64,000 nt of DNA from Catellatospora paridis (GTDB taxonomy: Bacteria; Actinomycetota; Actinomycetes; Mycobacteriales; Micromonosporaceae). Below the pieces are notes generated by a model. That model saw only the letters and a program-made list of their open reading frames with translations. It searched no databases and was not told the origin of the DNA. The DNA lies in the NCBI RefSeq assembly GCF_009720365.1, contig NZ_WBZD01000020.1, positions 62,001 to 126,000 of the forward strand, written 5' to 3'. Below, piece after piece: positions 2,191-29,555 of the stretch. The translations under genes were made by a program, and so were the position numbers. Every line of letters starts with the position of its first letter. The first letter of the stretch is position 1.

Positions 2191-2268
2191 ATGAGCGAGC
2201 GTAGCGAGCGAATCAGCAAGCTCAGTGCAGCGCCTGCACGCGACGAGCGCAGCGAGGAGCGGGCATGA
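2191..2268 (+). CDS. Short leader ORF (MSERSERI type) coupled to dsbA-like gene
   Basis: 25 codons starting [10 protein letters not shown] and ending ERSEERA. Its TGA stop overlaps the ATG of the DsbA-like gene as ATGA. The DNA is built from two copies of a dispersed repeat (GAGCGAGCGTAGCGAGCG and GACGAGCGCAGCGAGGAGC); the second copy also supplies the GAGGAG ribosome site of the next gene. The same design occurs at three other junctions in this window (16224, 24697, 25565). Translation is inferred from the repeated arrangement; a functional peptide product is doubtful. Confidence 0.5.
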   Translation: MSERSERISKLSAAPARDERSEERA

Positions 2269-2999
2269 GCAGCCGTAAGGATCAGAACGCGGCTGCCCGG
2301 ATGGTCCGGGACCAGATCGCCAAGGAGCAGCGCCGCAAGCGCACCATGTGGATCTCCATCGCGGCGGTGGCCGCGCTGGTCATCGCCGGCCTGATCGGCT
2401 GGGGCATCTACGCGGGCTCCAAGACGACGGACTTCACCGCCCCGAAGGGGGCCAACGCCGCCGGCAACGGCATCGCCACCGGCAGCGGGCCGGTCGTCGT
2501 CGACGAGTACGTCGACTTCCTCTGCCCGCACTGCAAGAGCTTCCACGACGAGGCCGGACCCTCGGTCGCGCAGCTCGCCGCCGACGGCAAGATCACCCTG
2601 GTGACGCACCCGGTGGCGTACCTCGACGGCGCGTCCACCAACCGGTACTCCACCCGCTCGTCGGCCGCCTCCGGCTGCGCCGCCGAGTTCGGCAAGTTCA
2701 CCGAGTTCTCGAACGTGCTGTTCGACAACCAGCCCGCCGAGGGCGGGGCCGGACCCACCGACGACGATCTGATCGTGCTCGGCCGGCAGGCCGGGCTCGG
2801 CGACGACTTCGCGCAGTGCGTACGCGACAAGCGTTTCCTCACCTGGACCAACCACGTCAGCGAGGAGGCCGGCCGCGCCGGCGTCACCGGCACCCCGACC
2901 GTCCTGGTCAACGGCAAGCCCACCCAGGCCAACGCGGCGCAGATCGCCGCCGCGGTCGCCGCCGCCACCGGCGCCAACCCGTCCGCGAGCACCAGCTGA
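2265..2999 (+). CDS. DsbA-family thiol-disulfide oxidoreductase, membrane-anchored
   Basis: 244 aa. An N-terminal basic stretch is followed by one membrane helix (about 27-48), and the rest lies outside the cell. The thioredoxin-fold domain carries the active site CPHC (about residue 87) in the context VDFLCPHCKSF, and the cis-proline loop GVTGTPTVLVNG is present near residue 210. It belongs to the thioredoxin_4/DsbA-like group that oxidises or isomerises exported proteins. The MauE-like protein encoded just upstream is the likely membrane redox partner. The GAGGAG ribosome site sits in the repeat-derived leader ORF that overlaps the start codon. Confidence 0.88.
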   Translation: MSSRKDQNAAARMVRDQIAKEQRRKRTMWISIAAVAALVIAGLIGWGIYAGSKTTDFTAPKGANAAGNGIATGSGPVVVDEYVDFLCPHCKSFHDEAGPSVAQLAADGKITLVTHPVAYLDGASTNRYSTRSSAASGCAAEFGKFTEFSNVLFDNQPAEGGAGPTDDDLIVLGRQAGLGDDFAQCVRDKRFLTWTNHVSEEAGRAGVTGTPTVLVNGKPTQANAAQIAAAVAAATGANPSASTS

Positions 3000-3019
3000 C
3001 ATGAGCTGAGCAGGAGCAG

Positions 3020-4117
3020 ATGACACCCCTCACGGCACAGCGGGTGGGCGCGGTCCTCGGGACCGCGCTCACCCTGCTGCTCACCCTCGCCACCCCCGCC
3101 GCCGCGCACGGGGCCGACGCCCCCGACGCCACGAACTACCGCACCGCCATCACCGGCACGCCTGACCTGCCCGGCCTCGAAGTGATCACGATCGAGGCGG
3201 GCGCGCGGCTGCAACTGACCAACCACAGCGGCAAGCCGGTCGAGGTGCTCGGCTACAACAACGAGCCCTACCTGGAGGTACGCCCCGACGGGGTGTACGA
3301 AAACATCCACTCCCCCGCCACGTACCTGAACATCACCATCGCGCACGTCGACCCGCCCGCGCACGCCGACCCGACGGTGCCCCCGGAGTGGCGCAAGGTC
3401 AGCGACGAGCCCGTGTACCGCTGGCACGACCAGCGCGCCATCTGGACCGACCCGGCCGAGCCGCCCGCCGTCGCCGCCGCGCCCGGCCAGCCCCACCGCA
3501 TCCGCGAGTGGACCGTGCCGATGCGCACCGAGGTGACCCCGCTGCAGGTCACCGGCACGCTCGACTGGGTCCCGCCGCCGAACCCGGTGACCTGGTGGAT
3601 CGCCGCCGTCGCCGGCGCGCTCGCCATCGCCCTGCTCGGCCTGGTACGCGGCCGCCCCCGCGCGATCACCGTCGCGCTCTCCGTCGCCGCGATCGCCGCG
3701 GGCGTCCTGGCCCTCGCCTACGCGGTCGCGCGCGAGATCGACGCGGGCAACCACAGCATCGGCCCGATCCTGCTCGAACTGCTCACTGTCCAGCTGTGGG
3801 CCGTGGTCAGCGCCCTGGCCGCGATCGCCGCGGGGGCGTACTCGCTGACCCGCCGCGCCGCGGGCGACTTCGCGCTGGCGCTCGGCGCGGCCGCGGTCGG
3901 CCTGTTCGCGGGCATGGTCAACGCGGCGGTCTTCCACCGCTCCATCGCCCCGGTCCCGTGGGGCGACACCGCGGCCCGGATCGCCGTCGCCACCGTGATC
4001 GCCCTCGGCGTCGGCGTCGCCGCCGCCGGCATGCTCCGCCTCCGCGGCACCACTTCGGGCACCCCCACCCCGACCGAGTCCCCCACGGACACGGCCACCG
4101 AACCATCCCACCCCTGA
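3020..4117 (+). CDS. Exported membrane protein with extracytoplasmic N-terminal domain, function unknown
   Basis: 365 aa. A signal peptide (about 1-30, ending AAAHG) precedes an extracytoplasmic domain of about 150 residues with no motif recognised with certainty. Five hydrophobic helices follow (about 193-211, 216-240, 250-275, 280-302, 315-338), then a Thr/Pro-rich tail. An AGGAG ribosome site is at 3010. It follows the DsbA-like gene by 20 bp and is the last gene before a strong hairpin, so it belongs to the redox operon. It may be a client or partner of the disulfide system; that is inferred from position only. Confidence 0.7.
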   Translation: MTPLTAQRVGAVLGTALTLLLTLATPAAAHGADAPDATNYRTAITGTPDLPGLEVITIEAGARLQLTNHSGKPVEVLGYNNEPYLEVRPDGVYENIHSPATYLNITIAHVDPPAHADPTVPPEWRKVSDEPVYRWHDQRAIWTDPAEPPAVAAAPGQPHRIREWTVPMRTEVTPLQVTGTLDWVPPPNPVTWWIAAVAGALAIALLGLVRGRPRAITVALSVAAIAAGVLALAYAVAREIDAGNHSIGPILLELLTVQLWAVVSALAAIAAGAYSLTRRAAGDFALALGAAAVGLFAGMVNAAVFHRSIAPVPWGDTAARIAVATVIALGVGVAAAGMLRLRGTTSGTPTPTESPTDTATEPSHP

Positions 4118-4180
4118 TAGACATTGGCCTATCTGGATGAAAAATCAGCGATCGAACTCATCCAGATAGGCCAACGTCTA
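4118..4180. terminator. Bidirectional terminator (long inverted repeat)
   Basis: Two 23-base arms (4118-4140 and 4158-4180) pair with one mismatch around a 17-base loop. It lies between two convergent genes. The hairpin is AT-richer than its surroundings and has a short T/A run on each side, so it can act as a terminator for both strands. Confidence 0.75.
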
Positions 4181-4206
4181 TTAAAACGGGTCGTGGCGAC
4201 GCCGGC

Positions 4207-4965
4207 TCAGGACACCGGGACGGCGAAGCCGTACGGGAGTTCCAGGCGGTGGCGGGCCAGCAGGTCGGCGTCGGCCAGCAGCTCCCGGGTCGGCCCGTCG
4301 GCCACGATGCGGCCGTCGTCCAGGATCACCGAGCGCGCGCACAGCTGCAGCGCGTACGGCAGGTCGTGGGTGACCATCAGCAGCGTCACGTCCAGCCCCA
4401 GCACGATCTCCGCGAGTTCCCGCCGCGCCTGCGGGTCCAGGTTGGACGACGGCTCGTCCATGACCAGCAGATCGGGCCGCATCGCCAACACCGTCGCGAC
4501 GGCGACGCGGCGGCGCTGGCCCAGCGACAGGTGATGCGGGGCGCGGTCCTTGACGTCGCTCATGCCGACCGCGGCCAGCGCCTCGTCCACCCGCGCGGCC
4601 AGCTCGGCCCCCCGCAGACCCAGGTTCGCCGGCCCGAACGCGACGTCCTCGGCGACGGTCGGCAGGAACAGCTGGTCGTCGGGGTCCTGGAAGACCAGCC
4701 CGACGCGGCGGCGGATCTCGGCGAGGCCGGGCCGGTCCTTCGGGTCGACGGTGCGGTCGCCGACCGACACCGTGCCGGACGAGCCGGTCAGGCCGGATGC
4801 GGGCAGGATGCCGTTGAGGTGCAGCACCAGCGTGGTCTTGCCGGCGCCGTTCGGGCCGAGCAGGGCGACCCGCTCGCCGGGCGCGATGCCCAGGCTCACG
4901 CCGTGCAGCGCCTGGTGGCCGTCGGGATAGGCGTAACGCACGTCGTCGAGCAGCAGTGCGGTCAT
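4207..4965 (-). CDS. cbiO: Nickel/cobalt ECF transporter ATP-binding protein (CbiO/NikO type)
   Basis: 252 aa ABC ATPase. Walker A is GPNGAGKTT (37-45), the signature is LSLGQRRR, and Walker B is LLVMDEPSSNLDP followed by the H-loop VTHDLPYA. It energises uptake of Ni2+ or Co2+ with the T component (next gene, overlapping by 4 bp) and the substrate component NikMN. The N-terminal sequence and the gene order M(N)-Q-O are those of group I energy-coupling-factor transporters. Nickel is preferred as substrate because of the Nur-type box upstream of the operon. Confidence 0.92.
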   Translation of the reverse strand: MTALLLDDVRYAYPDGHQALHGVSLGIAPGERVALLGPNGAGKTTLVLHLNGILPASGLTGSSGTVSVGDRTVDPKDRPGLAEIRRRVGLVFQDPDDQLFLPTVAEDVAFGPANLGLRGAELAARVDEALAAVGMSDVKDRAPHHLSLGQRRRVAVATVLAMRPDLLVMDEPSSNLDPQARRELAEIVLGLDVTLLMVTHDLPYALQLCARSVILDDGRIVADGPTRELLADADLLARHRLELPYGFAVPVS

Positions 4966-5732
4966 ACCAGGAACCTATCCGTCAGCAGGACCATGACGGC
5001 GAGCGCGGGCACCGCGGCCCCGACCGCCCACTGCCGGGCGGTGGCGACGCTGCCCTCGTGCAGCGCGGCGGGCAGCCGCCCGGTGTAGCCGCGCGAGCGC
5101 ATGGCCAGGAAGACCCGCTCGCCGCGCTCGAACGCGCGCAGGAACAGGGTGCCCAGCCCGGCCGCGAAGCCGCGCAGCTGCCACAGGAAGCGCGGATCGT
5201 CGAGCCGGGACAGCCGGGCGATCCGCATGCGCCGCGCCTCGTCGGCGAGCACGTCGAGGTAGCGGAGCATGAACAGGGCGATCTGGGTGATCGCCTGCGG
5301 GGTGCGCAGCCGGTCCAGGCCGACCAGCACGTCGCGGGCCGGGGTGGTGCCGGCCAGCAGCAGCGCGATGAGCACGCCGAGCGTGCCCTTGACCAGGATG
5401 TTCCAGCCCGCCCACAGCCCTTCGACGGCGACCGACAGCCCGAGCACGTCGGTGCGGGGCCCGGCGGCGAAGAACGGCAGCAGCACGGCGGTCGCCACGA
5501 ACGGCAGCTCGATCAGGCTGCGCCGGGCCAGCCACCCGGCGGGGATCCGGGCCAGCACCGCGAGCACCGCCACGATCACGGCGTACGCCCCGAAGGCGGG
5601 CAGCAGCTCGCGCGGCGTCGCCACCACCACGATCGTGAACAGCACCGAGACCGCGATCTTGACCTCGGGCGCGAGGTGGTGCACGGGCGAGTGCCCGTGC
5701 ACGTACATCGGATGGGTGTGCCCGGCGCCCAC
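4962..5732 (-). CDS. cbiQ: ECF transporter transmembrane (T) component CbiQ/NikQ
   Basis: 256 aa with about five membrane helices. The cytoplasmic stretch RMRIARLSRLDD and the later AMRSRGYTGRLP motif correspond to the two Ala-Arg-x coupling helices of T components that dock on the ATPase. It sits 2 bp after the end of the NikMN gene and overlaps the ATPase gene by 4 bp, so the three genes are one transcript. The N-terminus has a His-rich start (GHTHPMYVHGHSPVHH), which could gather metal ions; that is an inference. Confidence 0.9.
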   Translation of the reverse strand: MGAGHTHPMYVHGHSPVHHLAPEVKIAVSVLFTIVVVATPRELLPAFGAYAVIVAVLAVLARIPAGWLARRSLIELPFVATAVLLPFFAAGPRTDVLGLSVAVEGLWAGWNILVKGTLGVLIALLLAGTTPARDVLVGLDRLRTPQAITQIALFMLRYLDVLADEARRMRIARLSRLDDPRFLWQLRGFAAGLGTLFLRAFERGERVFLAMRSRGYTGRLPAALHEGSVATARQWAVGAAVPALAVMVLLTDRFLV

Positions 5733-5734
5733 GG

Positions 5735-6793
5735 CTACTTCTCCGCGGGTACGGCGACCGGGGTCGGCTCGCTCGCCGCGGACCCGGTGTCCGCGTGCCG
5801 GCGGCGGCGCACCGACCAGAAGATCGCCAGGCCGATCGCGAAGGTCAGCGCGACGCCGATGAGCCCGGCCAGGCCGGTCGCGTTGTCGATGCCCTTGATG
5901 CCGTAGTCGGCCAGGAACGAGCCGCCGAGTTCGTGGTCGGCCGCGCGCTGCGCGATACAGCTGCCGCCGGTGATCACCCCGTCGGCGTCGACCGTGCAGC
6001 CCTCCAACGTGGTCGCGTCGAGGCCGTCCGGGGAGCCCGAGGCCAGGTAACTGGCTCCGCCGGCCAGGACCGCGGCGACGGCCAGGCCGCCGAGCACGAA
6101 GACCCTGGTGGGTACGCCGCCGGTCGCGGGCCGTTCCAGGCGCGCCCCGCGCAGCGCGTACACCAGGTCGGGGCGCACCTTGGCCACGGTGGTGACCGTG
6201 ACGGCCGCGATCAGGCCCTCACCGATGCCGATCAGCGCGTGCACACCGGCCATGGTCGCCGAGATCTGCCCGTAGCCGATGGTCAGCGGCACCTCGCCGC
6301 CGAGCACGAACTGCAGCACGAAGCCCTGCGAGGCGAGCACCACGGAGACGATCGAGGCGAGGAACACGGCCAGGCCGACGCCCGCCGCCGTGCGCGGCAG
6401 CAGCTTCAGCAGGCCGACCAGCACCAGGTAGCCGACGGCGGTGCCGAGCAGCGCCATGTTGGAGATGTTGAGGCCCAGCGCGCTGATGCCGCCGTCGGCG
6501 AAGACCAGCGCCTGCACGATCAGGACGACCGAGACGCACAGCGCGCCGACCCACGGGCCGACCAGCGCGGCCGCCAGCGCGCCGCCCAGCAGGTGCCCGC
6601 TGACGCCGGGCAGCACGGGGAAGTTGAGCATCTGCACCGCGAAGATGAACGCGGCCACCAGGCCCGCCATGGGCGCCAGCCGGTCGTTGAGGTCCTGGCG
6701 CGCCCGGCCCAGGCACAGGACCAGCAGCCCGACGGCCACCACGCCGTAGGCGAGCGAGACCGGCCCGCCGATGATGCCGTTGGAGATGTGCAT
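5735..6793 (-). CDS. Nickel/cobalt ECF transporter substrate component, fused CbiM-CbiN/NikMN
   Basis: 352 aa from the ATG at 6793. In NikM/CbiM proteins the N-terminal Met amine and His2 bind the metal, and the sequence from this ATG reads MHISNG. The upstream in-frame GTG at 6805 would add four residues and destroy the site, so the ATG was chosen. The M domain covers about 1-220 with six or more helices. A helix, an outside loop with two Cys and a last helix follow; the PDGLD segment near residue 260 marks the fused N (PDGLE-type) component. It is the first gene of the operon, with a Nur-type operator at 6824-6840. Confidence 0.88.
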   Translation of the reverse strand: MHISNGIIGGPVSLAYGVVAVGLLVLCLGRARQDLNDRLAPMAGLVAAFIFAVQMLNFPVLPGVSGHLLGGALAAALVGPWVGALCVSVVLIVQALVFADGGISALGLNISNMALLGTAVGYLVLVGLLKLLPRTAAGVGLAVFLASIVSVVLASQGFVLQFVLGGEVPLTIGYGQISATMAGVHALIGIGEGLIAAVTVTTVAKVRPDLVYALRGARLERPATGGVPTRVFVLGGLAVAAVLAGGASYLASGSPDGLDATTLEGCTVDADGVITGGSCIAQRAADHELGGSFLADYGIKGIDNATGLAGLIGVALTFAIGLAIFWSVRRRRHADTGSAASEPTPVAVPAEK

Positions 6794-6823
6794 CGCGATA
6801 TTCACTCAGCCAGACTAAGGTTG

Positions 6824-6840
6824 TTGCAAAAGACTTGCAA
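6824..6840. promoter_or_regulatory. Nur-type (nickel-responsive Fur family) operator
   Basis: The sequence is TTGCAA, five bases, TTGCAA. This exactly matches the published Streptomyces Nur box pattern (tTGCaa-N5-ttGCAA). It lies 31 bp before the NikMN start, where binding would block transcription. It predicts repression of the transporter when nickel is plentiful. Confidence 0.75.
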
Positions 6841-6891
6841 TAAGCTGCGTCGGTCCCGCCCTCACCTGCGGCGTCCGACGGCACGGATAGG

Positions 6892-7377
6892 GTGTCCGGT
6901 GTGACGGAGAACGTACGACTCGCGCCCGGCGACGCCGCCCCCGACTTCAGCCTGCCGACCGCCGACGGCGGCACGCTCAGCCTGTCCGACCTGCGCGGCA
7001 AGAAGGTCGTCCTGTACGCCTACCCGGCCGCGATGACCCCCGGCTGCACCACCCAGGCCTGCGACTTCCGCGACTCGCTCGCCTCGCTCACCGCCAAGGG
7101 GTACGCCGTCGTCGGCATCTCCCCCGACGCGCCCGCGAAGCTGGCCAAGTTCGTCGAGCGCGACGCGATCACCTTCCCGCTCGTCAGCGACCAGGACAAG
7201 TCGGTCCTCGTCAGCTACGGCGCGTACGGCGAGAAGAAGAACTACGGCAAGGTCGTGCAGGGCGTCATCCGGTCCACCTTCGTCATCGACGAGAAGGGCC
7301 TGATCGAGCACGCCTTCTACAACGTCAAGGCCACCGGCCACGTCGCCAAACTCCGCCGCGACCTCAAGATCGACTGA
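6892..7377 (+). CDS. bcp: Thioredoxin-dependent peroxiredoxin, Bcp/PrxQ type
   Basis: 161 aa, normal for the family. The peroxidatic motif is MTPGCTTQACDF, where the first Cys reduces peroxides and the second, five residues on, is the PrxQ resolving Cys. The AhpC/TSA fold covers about residues 7-155. It reduces H2O2 and organic peroxides in the cytoplasm with thioredoxin. Two in-frame GTG starts (6892 and 6901) are possible. It is transcribed divergently from the nickel transporter operon, sharing a gap of about 100 bp that also holds the Nur-type box. Confidence 0.93.
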   Translation: MSGVTENVRLAPGDAAPDFSLPTADGGTLSLSDLRGKKVVLYAYPAAMTPGCTTQACDFRDSLASLTAKGYAVVGISPDAPAKLAKFVERDAITFPLVSDQDKSVLVSYGAYGEKKNYGKVVQGVIRSTFVIDEKGLIEHAFYNVKATGHVAKLRRDLKID

Positions 7378-7446
7378 AATCGCCTAGCCTGCATCACGAT
7401 CGTCGGCGAGGATGAGCGAGAATACGGCGGGCAGCTGATGCCCCCT

Positions 7447-7519
7447 GGGGCCGTAGCCCAACGGCAGAGGCACGCGGTTTAGGTCCGCGCCAGTGCGGGT
7501 TCGAATCCCGCCGGCCCTA
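7447..7519 (+). tRNA. Class I tRNA with UAG anticodon (unusual, Leu by anticodon)
   Basis: A full cloverleaf can be drawn: acceptor GGGGCCG with CGGCCCT (first pair G-U), 3-bp D stem, anticodon stem CGCGG/CCGCG, loop TTTAGGT, 5-nt variable loop, T stem GCGGG/CCCGC, discriminator A at 7519. The anticodon is TAG, which reads CUA (Leu), yet normal tRNA-Leu has a long variable arm and this one does not. The identity is therefore unclear. CCA is not encoded. Confidence 0.75.
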
Positions 7520-7530
7520 CTCACTCCCGC

Positions 7531-7884
7531 TCAGCTCGGCCCGAGCCCGCGCAGGTGCTCGGCGGCGACGCGTTTGGGCACGCACATGCGCCAGGCGTCG
7601 ACGATCAGCTCGCGCATCTCGTCGGAGTCGAGCGCGGCCATCCGCGCCTGCACCCAGTGGTAGCGCAGGTCGGACGTACGCGGCAGGAAGAACTTGTCCG
7701 GCTCGGCCGCCACCAGCGCGTCGCGGGCCTCCTTCGGATAACCGAAGCCCAGCTCCGTCTCGTCGGCGGAGAAGGCGGCGAACACGATCCGTCCCACCCG
7801 GAACTTGACCCGGTCGCGCACCAGCGCCTCGTACGCCCTCGGCAGCGACAGCGCGACCTGTCGCACCTGTTCCACCGTGACCAT
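7531..7884 (-). CDS. MmcQ/YjbR family protein
   Basis: 117 aa from the ATG at 7884, which gives the usual family N-terminus MVTVEQVRQVALSLP. An upstream extension is possible but lacks family similarity. The core pattern (KFRVGRIVFAAFS, then RYHWVQARMAAL and ELIVDAWRMCVPKR) is typical of this small DNA-binding-like fold, whose cellular role is not established. It is a single gene convergent with the tRNA, with no partner nearby. Confidence 0.8.
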   Translation of the reverse strand: MVTVEQVRQVALSLPRAYEALVRDRVKFRVGRIVFAAFSADETELGFGYPKEARDALVAAEPDKFFLPRTSDLRYHWVQARMAALDSDEMRELIVDAWRMCVPKRVAAEHLRGLGPS

Positions 7885-8062
7885 TCGCGCCCCCCGTTCG
7901 CCGGCCGTTCCCGAATCAGCCTGTGGCCGGCACCGCATCCCAGTCTGCTCTGCACCGGTGACATTCCGGGCGCGTCTCCGCAGAAGACAGCATGTCTATT
8001 GACATATTTAACGGTGTTCCGAAAGGCTCGGTGCGCGAGTCCTTCGACACCCTGGAGGGGCA

Positions 8063-11170: not shown

Positions 11171-11188
11171 CCCGCCGGGCACTGAGTC

Positions 11189-11271
11189 AAGAAGGGCACC
11201 TTCTTCCACGCATAGCGTGCTGAGCCATCGCTCGGCTCGCTGACGCGAACCGGCGAAGGTGCCCTTCCTCT
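11189..11271. repeat. Dispersed palindromic repeat, family R1 (copy a)
   Basis: About 83 bp. The outer arms GAAGGGCACCTTC and GAAGGTGCCCTTC flank a core that, on the minus strand, reads TTCGCGTCAGCGAG and then GCTCAGCACGC. The same layout recurs at 20042, 35736 and 41712, with a fragment at 42484. This copy lies behind the carboxypeptidase gene and could also fold as a transcript end. Confidence 0.8.
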
Positions 11272-11301
11272 GCGCCCAGCGGGGGTTCGTAGGATCGGAT
11301 C

Positions 11302-12640: not shown

Positions 12641-12709
12641 GACGCGACGTTATCAGCGTGTCACGCGGCAGGGTGCCCGCTGTCGGCGACGCGTCCGGCA
12701 CCGTCCGCG

Positions 12710-13552: not shown

Positions 13553-13666
13553 GAGGACGCACCTTCCACGGCGAACATGAATCCGTGTGCGAGTTCTATC
13601 ATGTCCGACCGCCCTGCGGACAGACCCGAGATTGTCACTGAATGAAAGTTTGCATACAGTGTCGTT

Positions 13667-14542: not shown

Positions 14543-14574
14543 TTAGGCACAGTACGGAATAGGTAGGGGAAGCG

Positions 14575-16224
14575 ATGGACCAGATCATCCGTGCCGCGAC
14601 CGGCACCACCCGCACCGCGTTGGGCTGGCCGCAGGAGGCGGCGATCCGGATGCTGTGCAACAACCTGGACCCGGACGTCGCCGAGCGCCCGCAGGACCTG
14701 GTGGTGTACGGCGGCACCGGCAAGGCCGCCCGGGACTGGCCCAGCTTCCACGCGCTGATCCGCACCCTGACCACGCTCAAGGACGACGAGACCATGCTGG
14801 TCCAGTCGGGCCGCCCGGTCGGCGTGTTCCGCACCCACGAGTGGGCCCCGCGCGTGCTGCTGGCCAACTCGAACCTGGTCGGCGACTGGGCCACCTGGCC
14901 CGAGTTCCGCCGCCTGGAGCAGCTCGGCCTGACCATGTACGGCCAGATGACCGCCGGCTCCTGGATCTACATCGGCACCCAGGGCATCCTGCAGGGCACC
15001 TACGAGACCTTCGCGGCCGTGGGCGAGAAGAAGTTCGGCGGCACCCTGGCCGGGACGCTGACGCTGACCGGCGGCTGCGGCGGCATGGGCGGCGCGCAGC
15101 CCCTCGCCGTCACCATGAACGGCGGCGCGTGCCTGATCGTCGACGTCGACAAGACCCGGCTCGACCGGCGCGTGCAGACCCGCTACCTCGACGTGGTCGC
15201 CGACTCCCTCGACCACGGCATCGAGCTGGCGCTGGCCGCCAAGCGCGAGCGCCGCCCGCTGTCGGTCGGCGTGGTGGGCAACGCCGCCGCCATCTTCCCG
15301 GAGCTGCTGCGCCGCGGCGTCGAGATCGACATCGTGACCGACCAGACCAGCGCCCACGACCCGCTGTCCTACCTGCCCGAAGGCGTGTCCATGGAGGAGT
15401 GGCAGACCTTCGCGGCCGACAAGCCGGAGGAGTTCACCGAGCGGGCCCGCGCCAGCATGGTCAGGCACGTCGAGGCCATGGTCGGCTTCATGGACGCCGG
15501 TGCCGAGGTGTTCGACTACGGCAACTCGATCCGCGGCGAGGCCCAGCTCGGCGGGTACGACCGCGCGTTCGCGTTCCCGGGCTTCGTGCCCGCGTACATC
15601 CGGCCGCTGTTCGAGGAGGGCAAGGGACCCTTCCGCTGGGCCGCGCTGTCCGGCGACCCGGCCGACATCGCCGCCACCGACAAGGCCGTGCTGGAGCTGT
15701 TCCCGCAGAACGAGTCCCTGTCCCGCTGGATCAAGATGGCCCAGGAGAAGGTCGCCTTCCAGGGCCTGCCCGCCCGCATCTGCTGGCTCGGCTACGGCGA
15801 GCGCGACAAGGCCGGCGTCCGGTTCAACGAGATGGTCGCCGACGGCACGCTGAAGGCCCCGATCGTCATCGGCCGCGACCACCTCGACTGCGGCAGCGTC
15901 GCGTCCCCGTACCGGGAGACCGAGGCGATGCTCGACGGCTCCGACGCGATCGCCGACTGGCCGCTGCTCAACGCCCTGGTCAACACGGCCTCCGGCGCGT
16001 CGTGGGTGTCCATCCACCACGGCGGCGGCGTCGGCATCGGCCGCTCCATCCACGCCGGCCAGGTCACCGTCGCCGACGGCACCCCCCTCGCCGCCCAGAA
16101 GATCGAGCGCGTCCTGACCAACGACCCCGGCATGGGCGTCATCCGCCACGTCGACGCCGGCTACGACCTCGCCGCCGACGTCGCCGCCGACCGCGGCGTC
16201 CGCATCCCCATGCGCGAGTCCTGA
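14575..16224 (+). CDS. hutU: Urocanate hydratase
   Basis: 549 aa, the usual length. The segment [17 protein letters not shown] and the NAD-binding [13 protein letters not shown] region are diagnostic, and the C-terminal [13 protein letters not shown] block is conserved. It converts urocanate to imidazolone propionate, step two of histidine degradation, with tightly bound NAD+. The ribosome site GGGGAAG lies just before the ATG. The stop overlaps the start of a short leader ORF (TGATG), which in turn overlaps the M20 hydrolase gene. Confidence 0.97.
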
Positions 16225-16367
16225 TGAGCGAGCACAGCGAGCTCGGCAGTTTCGGGGAAACTGCGGGAATCCGGGCTGGTTTTCCTGCAGTTTCCCCGAA
16301 ACTGCACTTCCACGCGCGGATCCAGCGCGACGCGCGGGTGCGGGTCGGCGTGGAGGTGTCGGCATGA
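16224..16367 (+). CDS. Short leader ORF (MSEHSE type) bridging hutU and the M20 gene
   Basis: 47 codons. The ATG overlaps the hutU stop as TGATG and its own TGA overlaps the M20 start as ATGA, so ribosomes could pass straight through. It begins [10 protein letters not shown], resembling the MSERSER leaders at 2191, 24697 and 25565, and its middle is formed by a nested palindrome (16246-16305). A peptide function is doubtful; a coupling role is inferred. Confidence 0.5.
   Translation: MSEHSELGSFGETAGIRAGFPAVSPKLHFHARIQRDARVRVGVEVSA
16246..16305. repeat. Nested perfect palindrome in the hutU-M20 junction
   Basis: Two 19-base arms (16246-16264 and 16287-16305) are perfect inverted copies around a 22-base loop. 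Each arm is itself nearly palindromic (GCAGTTTC...GAAACTGC). The RNA could form one long hairpin or two small ones, which could modulate expression of the downstream hut genes. Confidence 0.85.
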
Positions 16368-17563: not shown

Positions 17564-18939
17564 TCCACTGCCAGTACGCCTGGCTCCCCGACGGCGTCTT
17601 CCCCGACGTCCTCCTGGAGATCCGCGAAAACCGCCTGACCCGCGTGACCCGCTTCCAAGATCGCGGCGATCTTGCGCGAACTGTTAGGGATATGCCCGAT
17701 TCAGGTGTGTCGTCCCCACAGTCCACGCAAGATCGTCGCGGCGAGGCGGGCGGCGGGGTGGTTTATCGGGTCGGGTTGACGATGCCGGGGTTCGCGAACG
17801 CGCACTCTCACGCTTTTCACCGGGCGTTGCGGGGGCGTACGCACGCTGACCGGGGGTCGTTCTGGACCTGGCGGGAGCAGATGTACCGGGTGGCGGCGGC
17901 GCTGGACCCGGACTCGTACTACCGGCTCGCGCGCGGGGTCTACGGGGAGATGGCGCTCGGCGGGATCACCTCGGTGGGCGAGTTCCACTACCTGCACCAC
18001 GGGCCGGGCGGCACGCCCTACGCCGACCCGAACGCGATGAGCCACGCGCTGATCGCCGCGGCTCAGGAAGCCGGGCTGCGGATCACGCTGCTGGACACGC
18101 TCTACCTGACCGCGTCCGTGGACGGCAAGCCGCTCGAAGGGCCGCAGCTGCGGTTCGGCGACGGGGACGCGCTGCGCTGGGCGGACCGGGTCGACGCTCT
18201 GCCCGACGCGCCGCACCTGGTCGTGGGGGCGGCGATCCACTCGGTGCGGGCGGTGCCGCTGCCGCAGATGGCGACCGTGGCCGCGTGGGCGGCCGGGCGG
18301 CCGTTGCACGCCCACGTGTCGGAGCAGCGCGGCGAGAACGAGGCATGCCTGGCCGAGCACGGCCGTACGCCGACCGAGGTGCTCGCGGACTTCGGGGCGG
18401 TGCACGAGACGTTCACGGCGGTGCACGCCACGCACCTGACGCACCGGGACATGGCGCTGCTGTCGGACTCGTACGCCTGCTTCTGCCCGACCACCGAACG
18501 CGACCTCGGCGACGGCATCGGCCCGGCGCGCACCCTGGCCGACGCGGGCACCCGGCTGACCTTGGGCAGCGACAGCCACGCGGTCATAGACTTCTTCGAG
18601 GAGTCCCGGGCCCTGGAGCTGGACGAACGCCTCGCCACCGAACAGCGCGGGCACTTCACCGCGGCCGAGCTGCGGGCCGCGGCGACGGCGACCGGGCACA
18701 CCAGCCTGGGCTGGCCCGACGCCGGGCACCTCGTAGTGGGGGCGCGCGCCGACCTGGTCACCGTGGCCCTGGACAGCCCGCGCACCGCGGGGATCGACCC
18801 CGAGGGCGTGCTGTTCGCGGCGAGCGCCGCCGACGTCACCCACGTGCTGGCCGACGGCCGGGAGATCGTCCGGGACGGGCGGCACGTCGCCGTCGACGTG
18901 GCCCGCGAACTGCAGGAGGCGATCTCGTGTCTCTACTGA
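17557..18939 (+). CDS. hutF: Formimidoylglutamate deiminase with repeat-derived N-terminal insertion
   Basis: 460 aa from a GTG that overlaps the M20 stop (GTGCTGA). It belongs to the amidohydrolase superfamily, with the metal motif [16 protein letters not shown] after the first strand and later [12 protein letters not shown]. It converts N-formimidoyl-L-glutamate to N-formyl-L-glutamate and ammonia. Residues about 34-62 (from QDRGDLART to STQDRRG) are encoded by a dispersed repeat (R2, also at 23060 and 30444) that stays open in this frame. Homologues normally have only a short loop between the first beta strands and the NAHSHAF block. Confidence 0.93.
17657..17741. repeat. Dispersed palindromic repeat, family R2 (copy a), inside hutF
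   Basis: About 85 bp, bounded by GATCGCGGCGATCTTGC and GCAAGATCGTCGCGG in inverted orientation. The core contains ACTGTTAGGGATATGCCCG. A close copy lies at 23060-23140, matching at most positions, and a weaker one at 30444-30517. This copy is in the coding frame of hutF. Confidence 0.85.
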
Positions 18940-20144
18940 TCACCAACATCGGCGAGCTGACCACGAACGATCCGGAGCTCGGCATCCTGCGCGACGCCGC
19001 GATCGTGGTCGGCGAGCGGGTCGAGTGGGTCGGCCCGGCCGCCGCCGCGCCCGCCGCCGACGAGCGCGTCGACGTGCGCGGGGCGGCGGTGCTGCCCGGT
19101 TTCGTGGACAGCCACAGCCACCTGGTGTTCGCCGGGGACCGCGCGCCGGAGTTCGCGGCGCGCATGGCCGGGGAGCCGTACACCGGCGGCGGCATCCGCA
19201 CCACGGTCGCCGCGACCCGGGCCGCCACCGACGACCAGCTGCGCGCCAACGTGGCCCGCCTGGTCGGCGAGGCGCTGCGGCAGGGCACGACCACCATCGA
19301 GATCAAGAGTGGGTACGGCCTCAGCACGCTCGACGAGGCCCGCTCGGTCCGGATCGCATCGGAGTTCACCGACGAGGTCACCTTCCTCGGCGCGCACGTC
19401 AAACCCGCCGACTCCCCCGACGGCTACGTGGACCTGGTCACCGGCCCGATGCTGGACGCCTGCGCGAAGTACGCGGGCTGGGTCGACGTGTTCTGCGAGC
19501 GCGGCGCGTTCGACGTCGAGGAGTCGCGCCGGGTGCTCAAGGCGGGCATCGCGGCCGGGCTGCGCCCGCGCATCCACGCCAACCAGCTCACCATGGGCGG
19601 CGGCGTGCAGCTCGCCGTCGAACTCGACTGCGCCAGCGCCGACCACTGCACCCACCTGTCCGACGCCGACGTCGACGCCCTGGCGAACTCGAACACCGTC
19701 GCGACCCTGCTCCCGGGCGCGGAGTTCTCCACCCGCGCGCCCTACCCCGACGCGAGAAGGCTGCTCGCTGCCGGCGCCACCGTCGCGCTGGCCTCGGACT
19801 GCAACCCCGGCTCCTCGTACACCTCGTCCATGCCCTTCTGCATCGCCCTCGCGGTGCGGGACATGTTCATGACCCCCACCGAGGCCGTCTGGGCCGCGAC
19901 GGCAGGAGGCGCCCGCGCCCTGCGCCGTCCCGACCTCGGCCACCTCGCCCCCGGCGCGTCCGCGGACCTGATCGTCCTCGACGCCCCCTCTCACCTGCAC
20001 CTGGCCTACCGGCCCGGCGTGCCGCTGATCGCTTCCGTAGTAAGGAAGGGCACCCTCCAATCGCTATGCGTAGAGGAAGGGCACCTTCTTAACGCTTCGG
20101 GGCCGCACCATCCGGAATCTCCGCACAAGGGAGTGCTCTCATGA
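18927..20144 (+). CDS. hutI: Imidazolonepropionase with repeat-derived C-terminal tail
   Basis: 405 aa from a GTG inside the end of hutF (13-bp overlap). Metal-site motifs are [14 protein letters not shown] and later RIHANQL, DHCTHL and ASDCNPGSS. It hydrolyses imidazolone propionate to N-formimidoyl-L-glutamate. The conserved part ends near GVPLIASVV (about residue 372). The last 33 or so residues run through an R1 repeat (20042-20098) and then to the TGA that overlaps the hutH start (ATGA). The tail is therefore probably a late gain that kept translational coupling. Confidence 0.94.
20042..20098. repeat. Dispersed palindromic repeat, family R1 (copy b), at the hutI 3' end
   Basis: About 57 bp with GGAAGGGCACC at both the left and right parts and the typical end GAAGGGCACCTTCTTAACGC. 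It is shorter than the other copies and lacks the GCGTCAGCGAG core. It codes for [19 protein letters not shown] in hutI. Confidence 0.75.
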
Positions 20145-21676
20145 CCGTCATCGTCGAACCCACCGGCATCGCCCCGAGCGCCGTCGCTGCCGTGGCCCGC
20201 GCCGACGCGCAGGTCGCCATCAGCGACGCCGCCGTCGCCGCGATGCAGGCCAGCCGCGCCATCGTCGATGACATCGAGCGCGACGGCCGCCCCGTGTACG
20301 GCGTCTCCACCGGCTTCGGTGCCCTGGCCAACACCTTCATCGCCCCCGAGCGGCGCGCCGAGCTCCAGCACTCGCTGATCCGCTCGCACGCCGCCGGCAT
20401 CGGCGCGCCCATGCCGCGCGAGGTGGTCCGGGCCATGATGCTGCTGCGGGTCCGCTCGCTGGCGCTCGGCCACTCCGGCGTACGCCCGCTCGTCGCCCAG
20501 GCCCTCGTCGACCTGCTCAACCACGACATCACCCCGTGGGTGCCCGAGCACGGCTCGCTCGGCGCGTCCGGCGACCTGGCCCCGCTGGCGCACTGCGCGC
20601 TGGTGCTGATGGGCGAGGGCTGGGTGCTCGGCAAGGACGGCGCACGCGTATCCGCCGAGGACGCCCTGCACGCCGCCGGGCTCACCGGGATCTCGCTCAG
20701 CTCCAAGGAGGGCCTGGCGCTGATCAACGGCACCGACGGCATGCTCGCCATGCTGCTGCTGGCCTGCGACGACCTGGGCCACCTGTGCACCATGGCCGAC
20801 GTGACCGCGGCGCTGTCGATCGAGGCCATGCTCGGCACCGACCGGCCGTTCCATCCGTCGATCCACGAGATCCGCCCGCACCCGGGCCAGGGCGCGAGCG
20901 CCGCCAACATGTACAAGCTGCTCCAGCAGTCGTCGATCATGGACAGCCACCGGGACGACCACGAGCACGCGGTGCAGGACGCGTACTCGATGCGCTGCGC
21001 CCCGCAGGTCGCCGGCGCGGCCCGCGACACCCTGGAGTTCGCCCGCACCGTCGCCGCCCGGGAACTGATCAGCCTCGCCGACAACCCGGTGGTGCTGCCC
21101 GACGGCCGGGTCGAGTCGACCGGCAACTTCCACGGCGCACCGCTCGGCTTCGCCGCGGACTTCCTGGCCATCGCCGCCGCCGAGATCGGCTCGATCAGCG
21201 AGCGCCGGGTCGACCGGCTGCTCGACATGACCCGCTCGCGGGACCTGCCGCCGTTCCTCAGCCCCGACGCGGGCGTCAACTCCGGCCTGATGATCGCGCA
21301 GTACACCGCGGCGGGCATCGTGGCCGAGAACCGCCGGCTGGCCTCACCCGCCAGCGTCGACACCATCCCGACGTCGGGCATGCAGGAGGACCACGTCAGC
21401 ATGGGCTGGGCCGCGGCAAAGAAGCTGCGCACGGTCCTGGACAACCTGACCAGCCTGCTCGCGGTGGAACTGCTGGCCGCGGTACGCGGTCTGCAGCTGC
21501 GCGCGCCGCTGACCCCGTCGCCCGCGGGCCGAGTCGCCATCGCGCAGCTCACGCCCGTCATCGGCCTGCCCGGCCCGGACGTCTTCATGGCCCCGATCCT
21601 GGAGCAGGTCCGCGCCGTCGTCTCCGGCCCCGACCTCCTCGACGCCATCGAAACCGAGGTAGGCCCCCTCGCCTGA
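20141..21676 (+). CDS. hutH: Histidine ammonia-lyase
   Basis: 511 aa, normal length. The autocatalytic MIO cofactor forms from A142-S143-G144 in [14 protein letters not shown]. The active-site Tyr lies in [10 protein letters not shown] and [12 protein letters not shown] and FHGAPLGF are conserved. It deaminates L-histidine to urocanate, the first step of the pathway. In this operon it is last, coupled to hutI by an ATGA overlap. The GGGAG ribosome site is at 20130. The pathway in the window thus runs hutH, hutU, hutI, hutF and probably the M20 enzyme. Confidence 0.97.
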
Positions 21677-21732
21677 CCCCGCCAACGCCGCGCCGCGCCG
21701 AACCACGGCACGGCGCGGCCGCTCACCCAGTA

Positions 21733-21793
21733 GTTGATCATGAAGTTATGCCGGTGACACGCCGTCGAGCCGTGCCATAAGTTCATGATCAAC
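21733..21793. repeat. 61-bp palindromic repeat, family R3 (copy a)
   Basis: It begins GTTGATCATGAAGTT and ends AAGTTCATGATCAAC, with a core containing GACACGCCG. Copies of the same 61-bp length lie at 27038 (inverted) and 36651. It lies between two convergent genes and has no T run, so it is not a standard terminator. Confidence 0.9.
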
Positions 21794-21830
21794 GCGGGAG
21801 GGCGGCGGGCCTGGCCCAGGGCGGGTGGGG

Positions 21831-23045
21831 TCAGGAGATGTGTTCGGGGCGGATGCCGCGGCCGACCAGGCGGGCCGGGACGGCCTGCAGGGCGGGGAAG
21901 CGCTGGAAGAGTTTCAGCACGCCGGGGGCCTTGATCGGGGCATCAGCGCGCAGCACCGCGCCGACCAGGCGGCTCTGCGCGACCCGCTGCGCCCGCTGGG
22001 TCACCCGGGTCGGGAACATGCGGCGCTTGCGTACCAGGTCCAGGTCCTCGGTATGCAGCCGTCCCGCCTTGAGTTTCGGCCCGAGCAGCCGGGCCGCGGC
22101 GACCGCGTCCTGCACCGCGAGGTTGATCCCGACCCCGCCCACCGGGCTCATCGCGTGGGCGGCGTCGCCGATGCACAGCGCGCCCGGCACGTGCCACTTC
22201 TCCAGCCGGTTGACCTGCACGGTCAGCAGGTGCAACTGGTCCCACGAGGCGATCTCGCCGACCCGGCTCGCCACCATGGGGGCGAGCCCGGCGACCCGCC
22301 GCCGGAAGCCGTCCAGACCCTCCGCCTGCAGCCGTGCGTAGCCGCCCTTCGGGATGACGTACCCGCACTGGTAGTAGTCGTGCCGGTCGATCATGACCAG
22401 CATCGCCCCCGGCCCGACCCGGCCGAGCAGCCCCGCCGGATCGGCCGGCTCCCGTGAGATCCGGAACCACAGCACGTCCATCGGCGCGCCGAAGTCCACC
22501 GGCACCAGCCCCAGCCTGTCGCGGATCACCGAGGACCGCCCGTCGCACGCCACCGTCAGCTCGGCGTGCACCCGCACCGCCGCCCCGTCCGGACCGACCG
22601 CGGCGACGCCGGTGACCCGCCCGGTCTCGTCCCGCAGCACGTCCACCGCCTCGGTGGAGCGCAGCAGCGTGAACCCGGGCAGCTTCGCGGCCTCGGCGGC
22701 GATCAGGTCCAGGAAGTCCCACTGCGGCAGGATCAGCAGGTAGTTGTGCGGCTTGCGCAGCCGGGTGAAGTCGCCGACCTGGTACGTGCCGTCGTCGAAC
22801 GAGACCGTCACGCCCGGCTCGCGGCGTCCCGGCAGCTGCGCGATCGCGTCGCCCAGTCCGAGTTCGTCGAGCACGTCCAGGGTGGACGGATGGATGGTGT
22901 CCCCACGGAAGTCCCGAAAGAAGTCGGCGTGCTTCTCCAGCAGCACGACCTCGATCCCCTGCCGCGCCAGCAAGAACGCCAGCATCAACCCCGCCGGCCC
23001 ACTCCCCACGACGCACACCCGCGCCCGCAACTCCCGCTCCGCCAC
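21831..23045 (-). CDS. FAD-dependent monooxygenase (UbiH/PHBH-like)
   Basis: 404 aa from a GTG with GAGGAG six bases upstream; the frame is open further to 23078, but that part lies in a repeat. The N-terminal FAD-binding fold VCVVGSGPAGLMLAFLLA, the EKHADFFRDFRGDTIHP segment and the second FAD motif GDAAHAMSPVGGVGINLAVQ are typical of aromatic hydroxylases in the PHBH group. The DG motif CDGRSSVIRDRLGL is also present. The substrate is unknown. It is a single gene with no recognisable pathway partners beside it. Confidence 0.9.
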   Translation of the reverse strand: MAERELRARVCVVGSGPAGLMLAFLLARQGIEVVLLEKHADFFRDFRGDTIHPSTLDVLDELGLGDAIAQLPGRREPGVTVSFDDGTYQVGDFTRLRKPHNYLLILPQWDFLDLIAAEAAKLPGFTLLRSTEAVDVLRDETGRVTGVAAVGPDGAAVRVHAELTVACDGRSSVIRDRLGLVPVDFGAPMDVLWFRISREPADPAGLLGRVGPGAMLVMIDRHDYYQCGYVIPKGGYARLQAEGLDGFRRRVAGLAPMVASRVGEIASWDQLHLLTVQVNRLEKWHVPGALCIGDAAHAMSPVGGVGINLAVQDAVAAARLLGPKLKAGRLHTEDLDLVRKRRMFPTRVTQRAQRVAQSRLVGAVLRADAPIKAPGVLKLFQRFPALQAVPARLVGRGIRPEHIS

Positions 23046-23059
23046 GCCCCGCTCCTCAT

Positions 23060-23140
23060 GATCGCGACGATCTTGCACGTACTGTTACGGATATGCCCGG
23101 TTCGAGTGTGTCGTACCCGCAGTCCCCGCAAGATCGCCGC
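23060..23140. repeat. Dispersed palindromic repeat, family R2 (copy b)
   Basis: Bounded by GATCGCGACGATCTTGC and GCAAGATCGCCGCG, with the core ACTGTTACGGATATGCCCG. It matches copy a inside hutF over nearly its whole length. It lies in the gap between rdgB and the FAD monooxygenase gene, directly upstream of the latter's start. Confidence 0.85.
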
Positions 23141-23163
23141 GCCGGAGGGGGCGGGGCGGTGGG

Positions 23164-23787
23164 TCAGGCGAGGTTTTTGGCGATGACGGCGGCGAGGGCG
23201 CGGAAGGCCTTGCCACGGTGGCTGATGGCGTCCTTCTCGGCGGGTTCGAGTTCGGCGGTGGTGCGGGTGTGGCCTTCGGCGACGAAGATGGGGTCGTAGC
23301 CGAAGCCGCCCTCGCCGCGCGGGGCGCGCAGCAGGCGACCCGTCATCTTGCCGCTGACCAGGTGCTCACGGCCGTTGGTCGAGGTGCCGCCGCCCGGGAG
23401 GACCAGGGCCGCCGCGCAGACGAACGCCGCGCCGCGGTGCTCGTCGGGCACGTCGCCGATCTGCGCCAGCACCAGGTCCAGGTTGGCCCGGTCGTCGCCG
23501 TGCCGGCCGGACCAGCGGGCGCTGAAGACGCCCGGCATGCCGTTGAGCGCGTCGACGGCGAGGCCCGAGTCGTCGGCGACCGTGGGCAGGCCCGTGTGCT
23601 TGGCCCCCTCGCGCGCCTTGAGCAGGGCGTTCTCCGCGAAGGTCAGCCCGGTCTCGGGGACCTCGACATACGGCGGGACGTCGTCGAGGCCGACCAGCTC
23701 GACCTTGAGCAGCTCCGGCGAGCCGGCCAGGATGCGGCGCAGCTCGTCGAGCTTCTTGACGTTGCGCGTGGCGAGCAGGAGCTTCAC
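23164..23787 (-). CDS. rdgB: Non-canonical purine NTP pyrophosphatase (RdgB/HAM1)
   Basis: 207 aa from a GTG that overlaps the rph stop (GTGA). The N-terminal [14 protein letters not shown] loop, [10 protein letters not shown], the catalytic [11 protein letters not shown] block, GFGYDPIF and ISHRGKAF are all present. It hydrolyses dITP, ITP and XTP to the monophosphate and so keeps deaminated purines out of DNA and RNA. It follows rph in the same order as in other actinobacteria and is the last gene of the murI-MBL-rph-rdgB series. Confidence 0.95.
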
Positions 23788-24560
23788 CGGCGGAACACCT
23801 CCAGCAGACCGGCCGCGTCCAGCGTGGGCAGGCCCAGCGTGGTGCGCTGCAGCGTGGTCAGCGTCTCGCAGCCCGCCACGCCCAGGTCGAGCAGCGCGTT
23901 GAGCTGCTTGCGGTCGAAGACGCCGTCCTCGCCCGTGCCCTGCACCTCGACGAAGTCGCCGGTGCCGGTGCAGACCACGTTCATGTCGACGGCGGCCGTC
24001 ACGTCCTCTTCGTAGCACAGGTCCAGCCGCGGCTCACCGGCGACGATGCCGACGCTGACCGCGGCGATCGAGCGGTGCAGCGTGGTCTCGACGGTCTGCT
24101 TGCGGGTGAGCATGTTCTTGGCGGCCAGCCAGCTCACCGCGTCGTGCAGGGCCACGTACGAGCCGGTGATCGCGGCGGTGCGGGTGCCGCCGTCGGCCTG
24201 CAGCACGTCGCAGTCGATGACGATGGAGTTCTCGCCCAGCGCCTTCAGGTTGACGCAGGCCCGCAGCGCGCGGCCGATCAGGCGGGAGATCTCGTGCGTA
24301 CGCCCGCCGACCTTGCCCTTGACGCTTTCCCGGTCGGACCGGGTCGTCGTGGCGCGCGGCAGCATGGCGTACTCGGCGGTGACCCAGCCCTGGCCGGTGC
24401 CCTTGCGCCAGCGCGGCACGCCCTCGGTCACGCTCGCCGTGCACAGCACGCGGGTGTTGCCGAACTCCACGAGCACGGAGCCCTCGGGATGCATGCTCCA
24501 GTTCCGGGTCAACGTGACCGGGCGGAGCTGGTCGGCCGCACGGCCGTCAGGTCTGGTCAT
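23784..24560 (-). CDS. rph: Ribonuclease PH
   Basis: 258 aa, slightly longer than usual. Conserved RNase PH features include VLCTASV, the RGWVTAEY-like segment [29 protein letters not shown] and the phosphate-binding [13 protein letters not shown]. It trims tRNA 3' ends phosphorolytically. The start ATG overlaps the stop of a repeat-encoded leader ORF (24557-24697), whose DNA also supplies the GAGGAA ribosome site. Upstream lies the MBL hydrolase gene, often annotated as RNase Z-like, which would fit a tRNA-processing pair. Confidence 0.95.
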
Positions 24561-24697
24561 GCCAGTTCCTCGCTACGCTCGTCACCGGCAGCGCCGGACC
24601 CCATGATTCGCTCGCTGCGCTCGCTCATGCCGACTCCTCGCTGCGCTCGTCGCCAGCATGGACGCGGCTCCATGATTCGCTCGCTGCGCTCGCTCAT
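24557..24697 (-). CDS. Short leader ORF (two MSERSERIM blocks) coupled to rph
   Basis: 46 residues. MSERSERIM occurs twice, followed by a DERSEELA end; the TGA overlaps the rph ATG (ATGA). The DNA consists of two full units of the repeat ATGAGCGAGCGCAGCGAGCG plus the GACGAGCGTAGCGAGGAA half that provides the ribosome site. No family similarity is apparent. Translation is inferred from the same design at three other junctions. Confidence 0.5.
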
Positions 24698-24714
24698 GCG
24701 CCCACCCTATGGGG

Positions 24715-25461
24715 TCAAACTTCGTACCGGGCACCGGGGCGGACGATCTCGACGGGTCCGGCGAACGTGGCGGCCGCGTTGTTCAGCGTCTCGGCCTCCG
24801 AGCCCCACGCGGTCACCAGATGCGTCAGCAGCAACCGGCGCACCCCCGCCTTGGTGGCGATCTCACCCGCCTCGCCGCCGGTCAGGTGCAGGTCCGGCGG
24901 GTTGTCCACGCCGTCGAGGTAACTCGCCTCGCACAGGAACAGGTCCGCGCCCTGGGCCAGCCGCAGCAGCGCGTCGCACGGCGCCGTGTCGCCCGAGTAC
25001 GCCAGCACCCGCCCGTCGTGCTCCAGGCGCACGCCGTACGTCTCCACCGGGTGGTTGACCCGGTCCACGCTGACCTGGAACGGTCCGATCGGGAAGCTGC
25101 CCGGCTGCAGCGCGTAGAACGTGTAGACGTCGTCCAGCGGACCCTCGTCGAGGCTGTACGCCGTCGCGATGCGCTCCGGCGCGCCCGCCGGCGCGTACAC
25201 CGGGATGGGCGGGTAAGGGCCGTCCGGGGCGTAGCGGCGCACCACCACGTATGAGCAGGCGTCGAGCATGTGGTCGCAGTGCAGGTGGCTGAGCAGGATC
25301 GCGTCGACCGACTTCAGGCTCGCGTAGCGCTGCAGCGCCGACAGCGAGCCGGCGCCGAAGTCCACCAGCAGCCGGAAGCCGTCCGCCTCCACCAGGTATG
25401 CCGAGCAGGCCGACTCCGGCCCGGGAAAGCTGCCCGCGCAGCCCAGGACAGTCAATCTCAT
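24715..25461 (-). CDS. MBL-fold metallohydrolase
   Basis: 248 aa. The metal site motif is LSHLHCDHMLD, with further ligands in YSGDTAPCDAL and LTHLVTAWGS. The N-terminal LGCAGSFPGPESACSAYLVE is typical of the RNase Z-like/phosphodiesterase-like branch found beside murI and rph in actinobacteria. Its real substrate is not known: a tRNA-processing or cyclic-nucleotide role is possible. The start codon lies within a 16-bp-arm hairpin and overlaps the stop of a leader ORF that links it to murI. Confidence 0.88.
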   Translation of the reverse strand: MRLTVLGCAGSFPGPESACSAYLVEADGFRLLVDFGAGSLSALQRYASLKSVDAILLSHLHCDHMLDACSYVVVRRYAPDGPYPPIPVYAPAGAPERIATAYSLDEGPLDDVYTFYALQPGSFPIGPFQVSVDRVNHPVETYGVRLEHDGRVLAYSGDTAPCDALLRLAQGADLFLCEASYLDGVDNPPDLHLTGGEAGEIATKAGVRRLLLTHLVTAWGSEAETLNNAAATFAGPVEIVRPGARYEV

Positions 25462-25497
25462 GCTGGAGCTCCGCTTCGCGCAGCTCCAGCATGAGAT
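25455..25497. promoter_or_regulatory. Perfect hairpin covering the start codon of the MBL gene
   Basis: Arms ATCTCATGCTGGAGCT (25455-25470) and AGCTCCAGCATGAGAT (25482-25497) pair perfectly over 16 bp with an 11-base loop. The MBL start codon (25461-25459) is inside one arm. In the murI-leader-MBL transcript it would hide the start until ribosomes arriving through the leader ORF open it. Confidence 0.7.
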
Positions 25498-25565
25498 CCG
25501 AGGTCACAGCGCCCCATGCTCAGTCTCATCGCGCGCTCGCGCGCCTGTTCGCTTCGCTCACTCAT
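25458..25565 (-). CDS. Short leader ORF (MSERSEQ type) bridging murI and the MBL gene
   Basis: 35 residues starting [11 protein letters not shown]. Its ATG overlaps the murI stop (ATGA) and its TGA overlaps the MBL start (ATGA), so the three frames form an unbroken coupled series. The second half is the coding side of the perfect hairpin at 25455-25497. The peptide itself has no recognised similarity. Confidence 0.5.
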
Positions 25566-27037: not shown

Positions 27038-27098
27038 GTTGATCATGAACTTAGGGGCAGGTTCGGCGGCGTGTCGTTGACATAACTTCATGATCAAT
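27038..27098. repeat. 61-bp palindromic repeat, family R3 (copy b, inverted)
   Basis: It starts GTTGATCATGAACTTAGG and ends ATAACTTCATGATCAAT. Read on the minus strand it aligns with the copies at 21733 and 36651 over all 61 bases, including GACACGCCGCCGAAC. It lies between convergent genes. Confidence 0.9.
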
Positions 27099-29544: not shown

Positions 29545-29555
29545 ACCCAGCCGCG

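Follow-up and report, generated by a model that had tools for sequence, protein, structure and literature searches.

What are the short open reading frames (ORFs) that begin with MSERSER or a similar string in a 64,000-nt stretch of Catellatospora paridis DNA (contig NZ_WBZD01000020.1, positions 62,001 to 126,000; hereafter the window), and how do they come to lie exactly between genes? They stand at four operon junctions, namely DoxX-dsbA, hutU-M20, murI-MBL (metallo-beta-lactamase fold) and MBL-rph, and an original prediction from this stretch had read them as a repeat family acting as a portable leader or translational-coupling element. Our analysis supports that reading for a unit of ~70 nt bearing a very short ORF and a pair of hairpins: its portability is shown by sister species in which the sites are exactly empty, and coupling is what we infer from the anatomy. 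The explanation that we favor, with a probability of roughly 0.7, is a non-autonomous mobile element of small size whose insertions lie at RTGA starts, mostly within operons, and are tolerated there through coupling by its leader.

Placement and reading frame across the host genome

The element is far more frequent than chance would give. In the host genome (8.97 Mb in 35 contigs), exact matches to its left end, or head (GAGCGAGCGNAGCGAG), number 48 vs. one for the reversed pattern, and right ends (GACGAGCGNAGCGAGGA) number 86 vs. none. Within the window, GAGCGAGCGNAGCGAGCG with up to two mismatches is found four times (0.17 expected from shuffles), the copy upstream of the MBL gene not being among the four. 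The covariance model R1, built for the right end from 31 of 41 diverged copies (ten having been left out by eye), recognized at least 117 places in the host genome at E ≤0.01, with 150 of 21662 candidates scored.

The copies are not placed at random relative to starts. Across 468 kb of the host genome, chosen as motif-bearing and containing 99 right-end cores, a DTGA start follows exactly 7 nt after the right end in 89 cores; the start lies 8 nt on in three others and 10 nt on in one, one has ATGC at 7 nt, and five have no start at the expected place. A head was recognized upstream of 62 of these 99 cores, and 60 have both head and start. In 58 of the 60 units, the head-to-start distance is 2 mod 3 and the stop of the leader overlaps the start, at unit lengths of 68 nt (23 units), 71 nt (25), 74 nt (9) and 83 nt (1), and in the two exceptional units (69 and 70 nt) the frame runs through. 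Hairpins alone need no steps of 3 nt, as opposed to a translated leader. Counted from the exact heads, the leader stop overlaps the next start in 40 of 48, and in 31 of these 40 the upstream frame ending at the RTGA of the leader is open for at least 60 codons. Early closure of the leader frame, which the original prediction had named as a possible objection, is seldom seen (one of the 48 exact heads).

Filled and empty sites in sister species

Mobility was assessed by comparing sites among 11 genomes of the genus, including that of the window. The MBL-rph junction is filled in three of them (two units in the genome of the window, one each in G109 and G129) and empty in eight, and the murI-MBL junction is filled in six and empty in five, where murI and MBL overlap as ATGA or lie close. 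The DoxX-dsbA junction is filled in the genome of the window and holds a decayed copy in G125, with no full element recognized in the other nine. Because exact empty sites exist in sister species, the element moves.

After insertion, an RTGA stands at both ends. The right RTGA equals the empty site of nearer relatives at two loci (C3:741819 and C15:24379), and the left RTGA does so at two others (C8:73469 and C3:581391). C2:811366 varies among species, and its left pair switches jointly from G/C to A/T. The variant at murI-MBL keeps the frame in all six filled genomes and ends in a long Watson-Crick stem that includes the start codon in five of them, G129 being arranged differently.

Shortened 26-nt forms (ATGAGCGAGCGCAGCGAGGAGA.GGCATGA) occur at L014:1501-1530 and L008:1501-1530 with the leader frame kept, and look like head-tail deletions. 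Comparable short forms precede hisH in G129 and G100.

Two hairpins that include the start codons

Covariation supports two hairpins, partly built on tandem G-A mismatches, each of which includes one of the flanking RTGA start codons. In the left head, RTGAGCGAGC-NNN-GCGAGCGAAY, GC pairs alternate with tandem G-A mismatches. Among the 79 distinct heads (of 136 in the genus), picked by their G-A positions, the first and 23rd bases (R1-Y23) form A-T in 50, A-C in 6, G-T in 1, G-C in 17 and other combinations in 5 (p-value 7e-11). The same pair in 70 distinct heads from other families gave 35, 3, 2, 23 and 7 in that order (p-value 7e-12). Positions 9-15 (p-value 8e-6) and 5-19 (p-value 0.03) also covary in the 79 genus heads, pairs 6-18 and 10-14 showed nothing clear in that set, and double changes at C2-G22 were not relied on. 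For the ATGA form, the folding program chose another register of this hairpin, together with bases further on; that register was rejected, its pairs having no excess over expectation.

At the right end, the paired arms YCATGCC and GGCRTGA enclose a GC-GNA-GC cap. The downstream start codon's first base and the base facing it change together: in 195 right ends (20 of them from a scan of named genomes, and all with TGA at the fixed place) the combinations are T-A 130, T-G 2, C-A 10, C-G 29 and other 24 (p-value 5e-22). Across all 41 diverged right ends, none of 500 shuffles reached the observed share of paired cells (76.1% vs. 71.3 in shuffles), the number of double-change cells (22 vs. 8.1) or the covariation (0.173 vs. 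0.103), and slid versions of the pairing gave at most 17 double-change cells and a covariation of at most 0.097. Comparison of own with permuted arms gave 0/300 in family f41, 15/300 in f31, 8/300 in f27 and 116/300 in f22, and units of the host genome scored 7.47 vs. a maximum of 7.22 among 200 permutations.

Distribution in other genomes

The right end GACGAGCGNAGCGAGGAG was detected in 45 of 250 genomes of the family, or 11 of 44 genera, and within the genus in 8 of 11 genomes, at 0 to 85 copies. A relaxed head pattern, with the first base, the loop and the 23rd base left open, was found in 24 of 394 genomes of the class (13 of 138 genera). The 70 distinct heads from other families, six in all, were read from these genomes and follow the arrangement of the host genome: 65 begin a leader of fewer than 60 codons that ends in an overlap with a start, and 59 of these leaders precede a frame of at least 60 codons. 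Outside the pattern are three heads that open frames of 216, 222 and 362 codons and two with short frames and no overlap. Among 276 control ORFs (18-40 codons, RTGA start, same loci), 99 have such an overlap, and the upstream frame is open for at least 60 codons at 63 of the 70 heads vs. 508 of 1811 control sites.

Two members of family f31 (L278 and L279) have leaders of 35-36 codons with an additional G+C-rich palindrome in the spacer, and in another genus of the host family six right ends run head-to-tail with a 60-nt period (G009:C1:1133260-1133577).

Proposed mechanism and alternative explanations

How could an insertion at a start codon be tolerated? We propose that RTGA start codons (ATGA or GTGA), for the most part those within operons, are the exact insertion sites of the element, which supplies a ribosome site along with its two hairpins, with one RTGA in each. 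The left RTGA begins the leader ORF, usually overlapping the stop of the upstream gene, and in the right RTGA the leader stop overlaps the start of the downstream gene. Ribosomes leaving the upstream gene would stop at the left RTGA and restart on the leader; a ribosome translating the leader would then open the right hairpin and end on the right RTGA, exposing both this RTGA and the ribosome site. The downstream gene could start once the hairpin is open, the operon would stay coupled, and the insertion would be tolerated as a consequence. As judged from this anatomy, the hairpins probably keep adjacent genes linked in translation.

Several observations weigh against this explanation. Eight of the 48 exact heads lack the start overlap (four continue in frame into a long ORF, three lack a start codon and one has an early stop). 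Neither the number of pairs with a double change (132/500) nor that of further pair types (172/500) rises above shuffles in the 41 right ends. Whole units are no stabler than dinucleotide shuffles (mean z -0.39, with 6 of 58 below -2), nor is the left hairpin alone (z 0.35 as RNA, 0.77 as DNA), and the consensus right hairpin is stabler as RNA only (z -2.63, vs. -0.47 as DNA). At the start-codon pairs, T-G is rarer than C-A (right end 2 vs. 10, left end 1 vs. 6), which an RNA helix with wobble pairing alone does not predict and which selection for ATG could cause. Finally, the copies are related, and the p-values given above are hence too small.

Could the element be a selfish repeat, tolerated at operon junctions merely because frame-breaking insertions are lost, and with no regulatory role? 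We give this slightly less than even odds. Right ends range from 0 to 85 across the 11 genus genomes, which implies that no host needs the element, and decayed and frame-fused copies occur; however, double changes preserve the stems and the 3-nt length steps persist. This possibility is compatible with the favored explanation, where coupling is required for nothing beyond tolerance. It appears rather unlikely that the hairpins act instead as single-stranded DNA in transposition, with the RTGA target base-paired and the leader ORF only rendering the insertion harmless. Hairpins of IS200/IS605 and repetitive extragenic palindromic (REP) elements do work in single-stranded DNA during transposition, and the layout RTGA - hairpin ... 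hairpin - RTGA, in which each RTGA copy shows covariation with an internal base, would fit, but DNA folding energies are weak and the RTGA copy that equals the empty site is mixed. Y1_Tnp was matched in six of the 11 genus genomes (85, 60, 66, 14, 77 and 10 right ends), and the five genomes without a match have 0, 0, 0, 2 and 38. This co-occurrence is suggestive of a Y1 transposase as the mobilizer but is not supported by the ends: the four Y1 loci that were read, out of more matches, resemble ordinary IS200/IS605 with no element ends nearby, and the genome with 38 copies (G087) has no Y1 match. As for a chance coincidence of G+C-rich repeats with ATGA-type overlaps, these overlaps are indeed common (the 99 of 276 control ORFs above), but the reversed patterns (0 to 1 matches) and the shuffles reject chance and the exact empty sites contradict it, leaving it hardly any probability.

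Relation to MIRUs and other known systems

The closest known kind of element is the mycobacterial interspersed repetitive unit (MIRU), of which the element described here is a two-hairpin variant outside mycobacteria. According to PMC12548453, which cites Supply et al. (1997), MIRUs appear to be mobile, have start codons as their insertion sites and show coupling of the ORF at -4 nt; they are described as 40-100 bp long and present at 41 sites in one reference genome (PMC2734929), and as having units of 77 and 53 bp (PMC4213456). Both systems consist of short dispersed units, some in tandem, and the 68, 71, 74 and 83 nt of 58 of our 60 units fall within the MIRU size range. Insertion at a start codon with a 4-nt overlap between ORF and gene is likewise found here, and GAGCGNAGCGA, with a variable N, followed by purine-rich GAGGAG, is shared. 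The element thus works like a MIRU. The two also differ. The MSERSER head hairpin was not seen among the 20 MIRU units examined, whose leader stop overlaps a start in seven (one of them preceding a frame of only 13 codons); R1 matched the MIRU sites marginally (E 0.007 to 1.4, at 18 of 20 loci, two overlapping ones being omitted), and one off-site match also reached E 1.4; support for a MIRU outer stem was weak (4/300 permutations). The MIRU core pattern had no exact match in the host genome and was found in 13 of 249 genomes of the order, all in one genus.

Other known systems share parts of this design. IS200/IS605 and REP with REP-associated tyrosine transposases (RAYT) have end hairpins, a fixed tetranucleotide outside and exact empty sites, and covariation places a hairpin, of RNA or DNA, adjoining the target tetranucleotide at each end of our element as well. 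Unlike them, the element contains no transposase, has start codons as its sites and includes an ORF of its own, and none of the four loci read among the Y1 matches has the element's ends beside it. Coupling by RNA unfolding involves, according to a passage of PMC12548453, a 4-nt stop/start overlap and a ribosome site and start within a predicted hairpin in the upstream ORF. The element has this overlap, and its ribosome site and start also lie in a predicted hairpin, whereas in this case the putative coupler is itself dispersed over numerous unrelated junctions. In the open-access literature, covered mostly as titles and abstract openings, we recognized no description of such elements outside mycobacteria.

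MIRUs are routinely used as typing markers, and the literature passages and listings covered gave no account of how they move. The same design in non-pathogenic actinomycetes, with sites filled in some sister species and empty in others, and with hairpins that covary and contain the start codon, offers a tractable system for finding the mobilizing enzyme and testing the coupler role. One might speculate, as a doubtful prospect, that MIRUs and MSERSER elements form a single actinobacterial class of single-strand hairpin transposons, in which an internal guide base pairs with the RTGA and the hairpins double as mRNA locks opened only by the upstream ribosome; if true, this would be a mobile element built around the operon stop/start overlap. 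At a practical level, our results suggest that some annotated N-termini starting with MSERSER are leaders or fused insertions.

The four junctions of the window

All four leader ORFs and their ATGA junctions with the next gene lie at the positions given in the original prediction. Pfam identifies the neighbors as MauE/DoxX and DSBA-like at the dsbA junction, urocanase and Peptidase_M20 at the M20 junction, and Asp/Glu racemase, a beta-lactamase-superfamily fold and RNase PH along murI, MBL and rph. The original prediction had two leaders also overlapping the preceding stop, and they do, hutU by 1 nt (TGATG) and murI by 4 nt (ATGA). Its claim that three leaders are built from one repeat needs qualification, the repeat being exact upstream of dsbA, as a single copy, and of rph, as a tandem pair, with two mismatches at M20 and a more diverged variant at MBL.

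The unit between MauE/DoxX and the dsbA-like gene (2191..2264, plus strand; 74 nt) is recognized by its sequence, unit length and frame. Its leader ORF (MSERSERI..., 2191-2268, plus strand) ends in a TGA that overlaps the dsbA ATG at 2265. The left hairpin (2191..2213, plus strand) has the head form RTGAGCGAGC-NNN-GCGAGCGAAY supported by the covariation among the 79 distinct genus heads, and the right hairpin (2232..2268, plus strand; R1, E 1.2e-8), with GAGGAG and the dsbA start codon, has an imperfect outer stem.

Upstream of rph, on the minus strand, the leader ORF 24697-24557 consists of two tandem units, the first of 69 nt (24629..24697), where the leader starts at 24697, and the second of 68 nt (24561..24628), where the leader TGA and the rph ATG at 24560 overlap. 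It is the first unit that G109 and G129 lack. The right hairpins lie at 24625..24661 (R1, E 1.7e-9) and, including the rph start codon, at 24557..24593 (R1, E 6.3e-8), both on the minus strand.

Between murI and the MBL-fold gene lies the variant element (25462..25565, minus strand), whose 104 nt keep the frame (2 mod 3). The start of its leader ORF (25565-25458, minus strand) overlaps the murI stop and its stop overlaps the MBL start at 25461. The right hairpin (25458..25494, minus strand) is predicted to fold as a Watson-Crick stem that includes the MBL start codon, with a GC-GAA-GC cap.

Of the four junctions proposed, dsbA, rph and MBL carry the pattern, and M20 is mainly another repeat. 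In the leader-like ORF there (16224..16367, plus strand), a partial head gives way to an unrelated palindromic repeat, which makes up most of the ORF; this ORF was rejected as a full member of the family and is not counted as one.

Other repeats in the window

The repeat between hutU and M20 (16246-16307) is a palindrome of ~62 nt of the GCAGTTTCGGGGAAACTGC type, with many matches on both strands across the 11 genus genomes. G016, G118 and G133 have many copies of this type despite 0 to 2 MSERSER right ends. An Rfam search of the window returned tRNA as the sole match. A dispersed palindrome of 61 nt (GTTGATCATGAA...TTCATGATCAAC) has three copies in the window (21733-21793, 27038-27098 and 36651-36711), and positions 29315-29554 hold two tandem units of 120 nt that are 97% identical.

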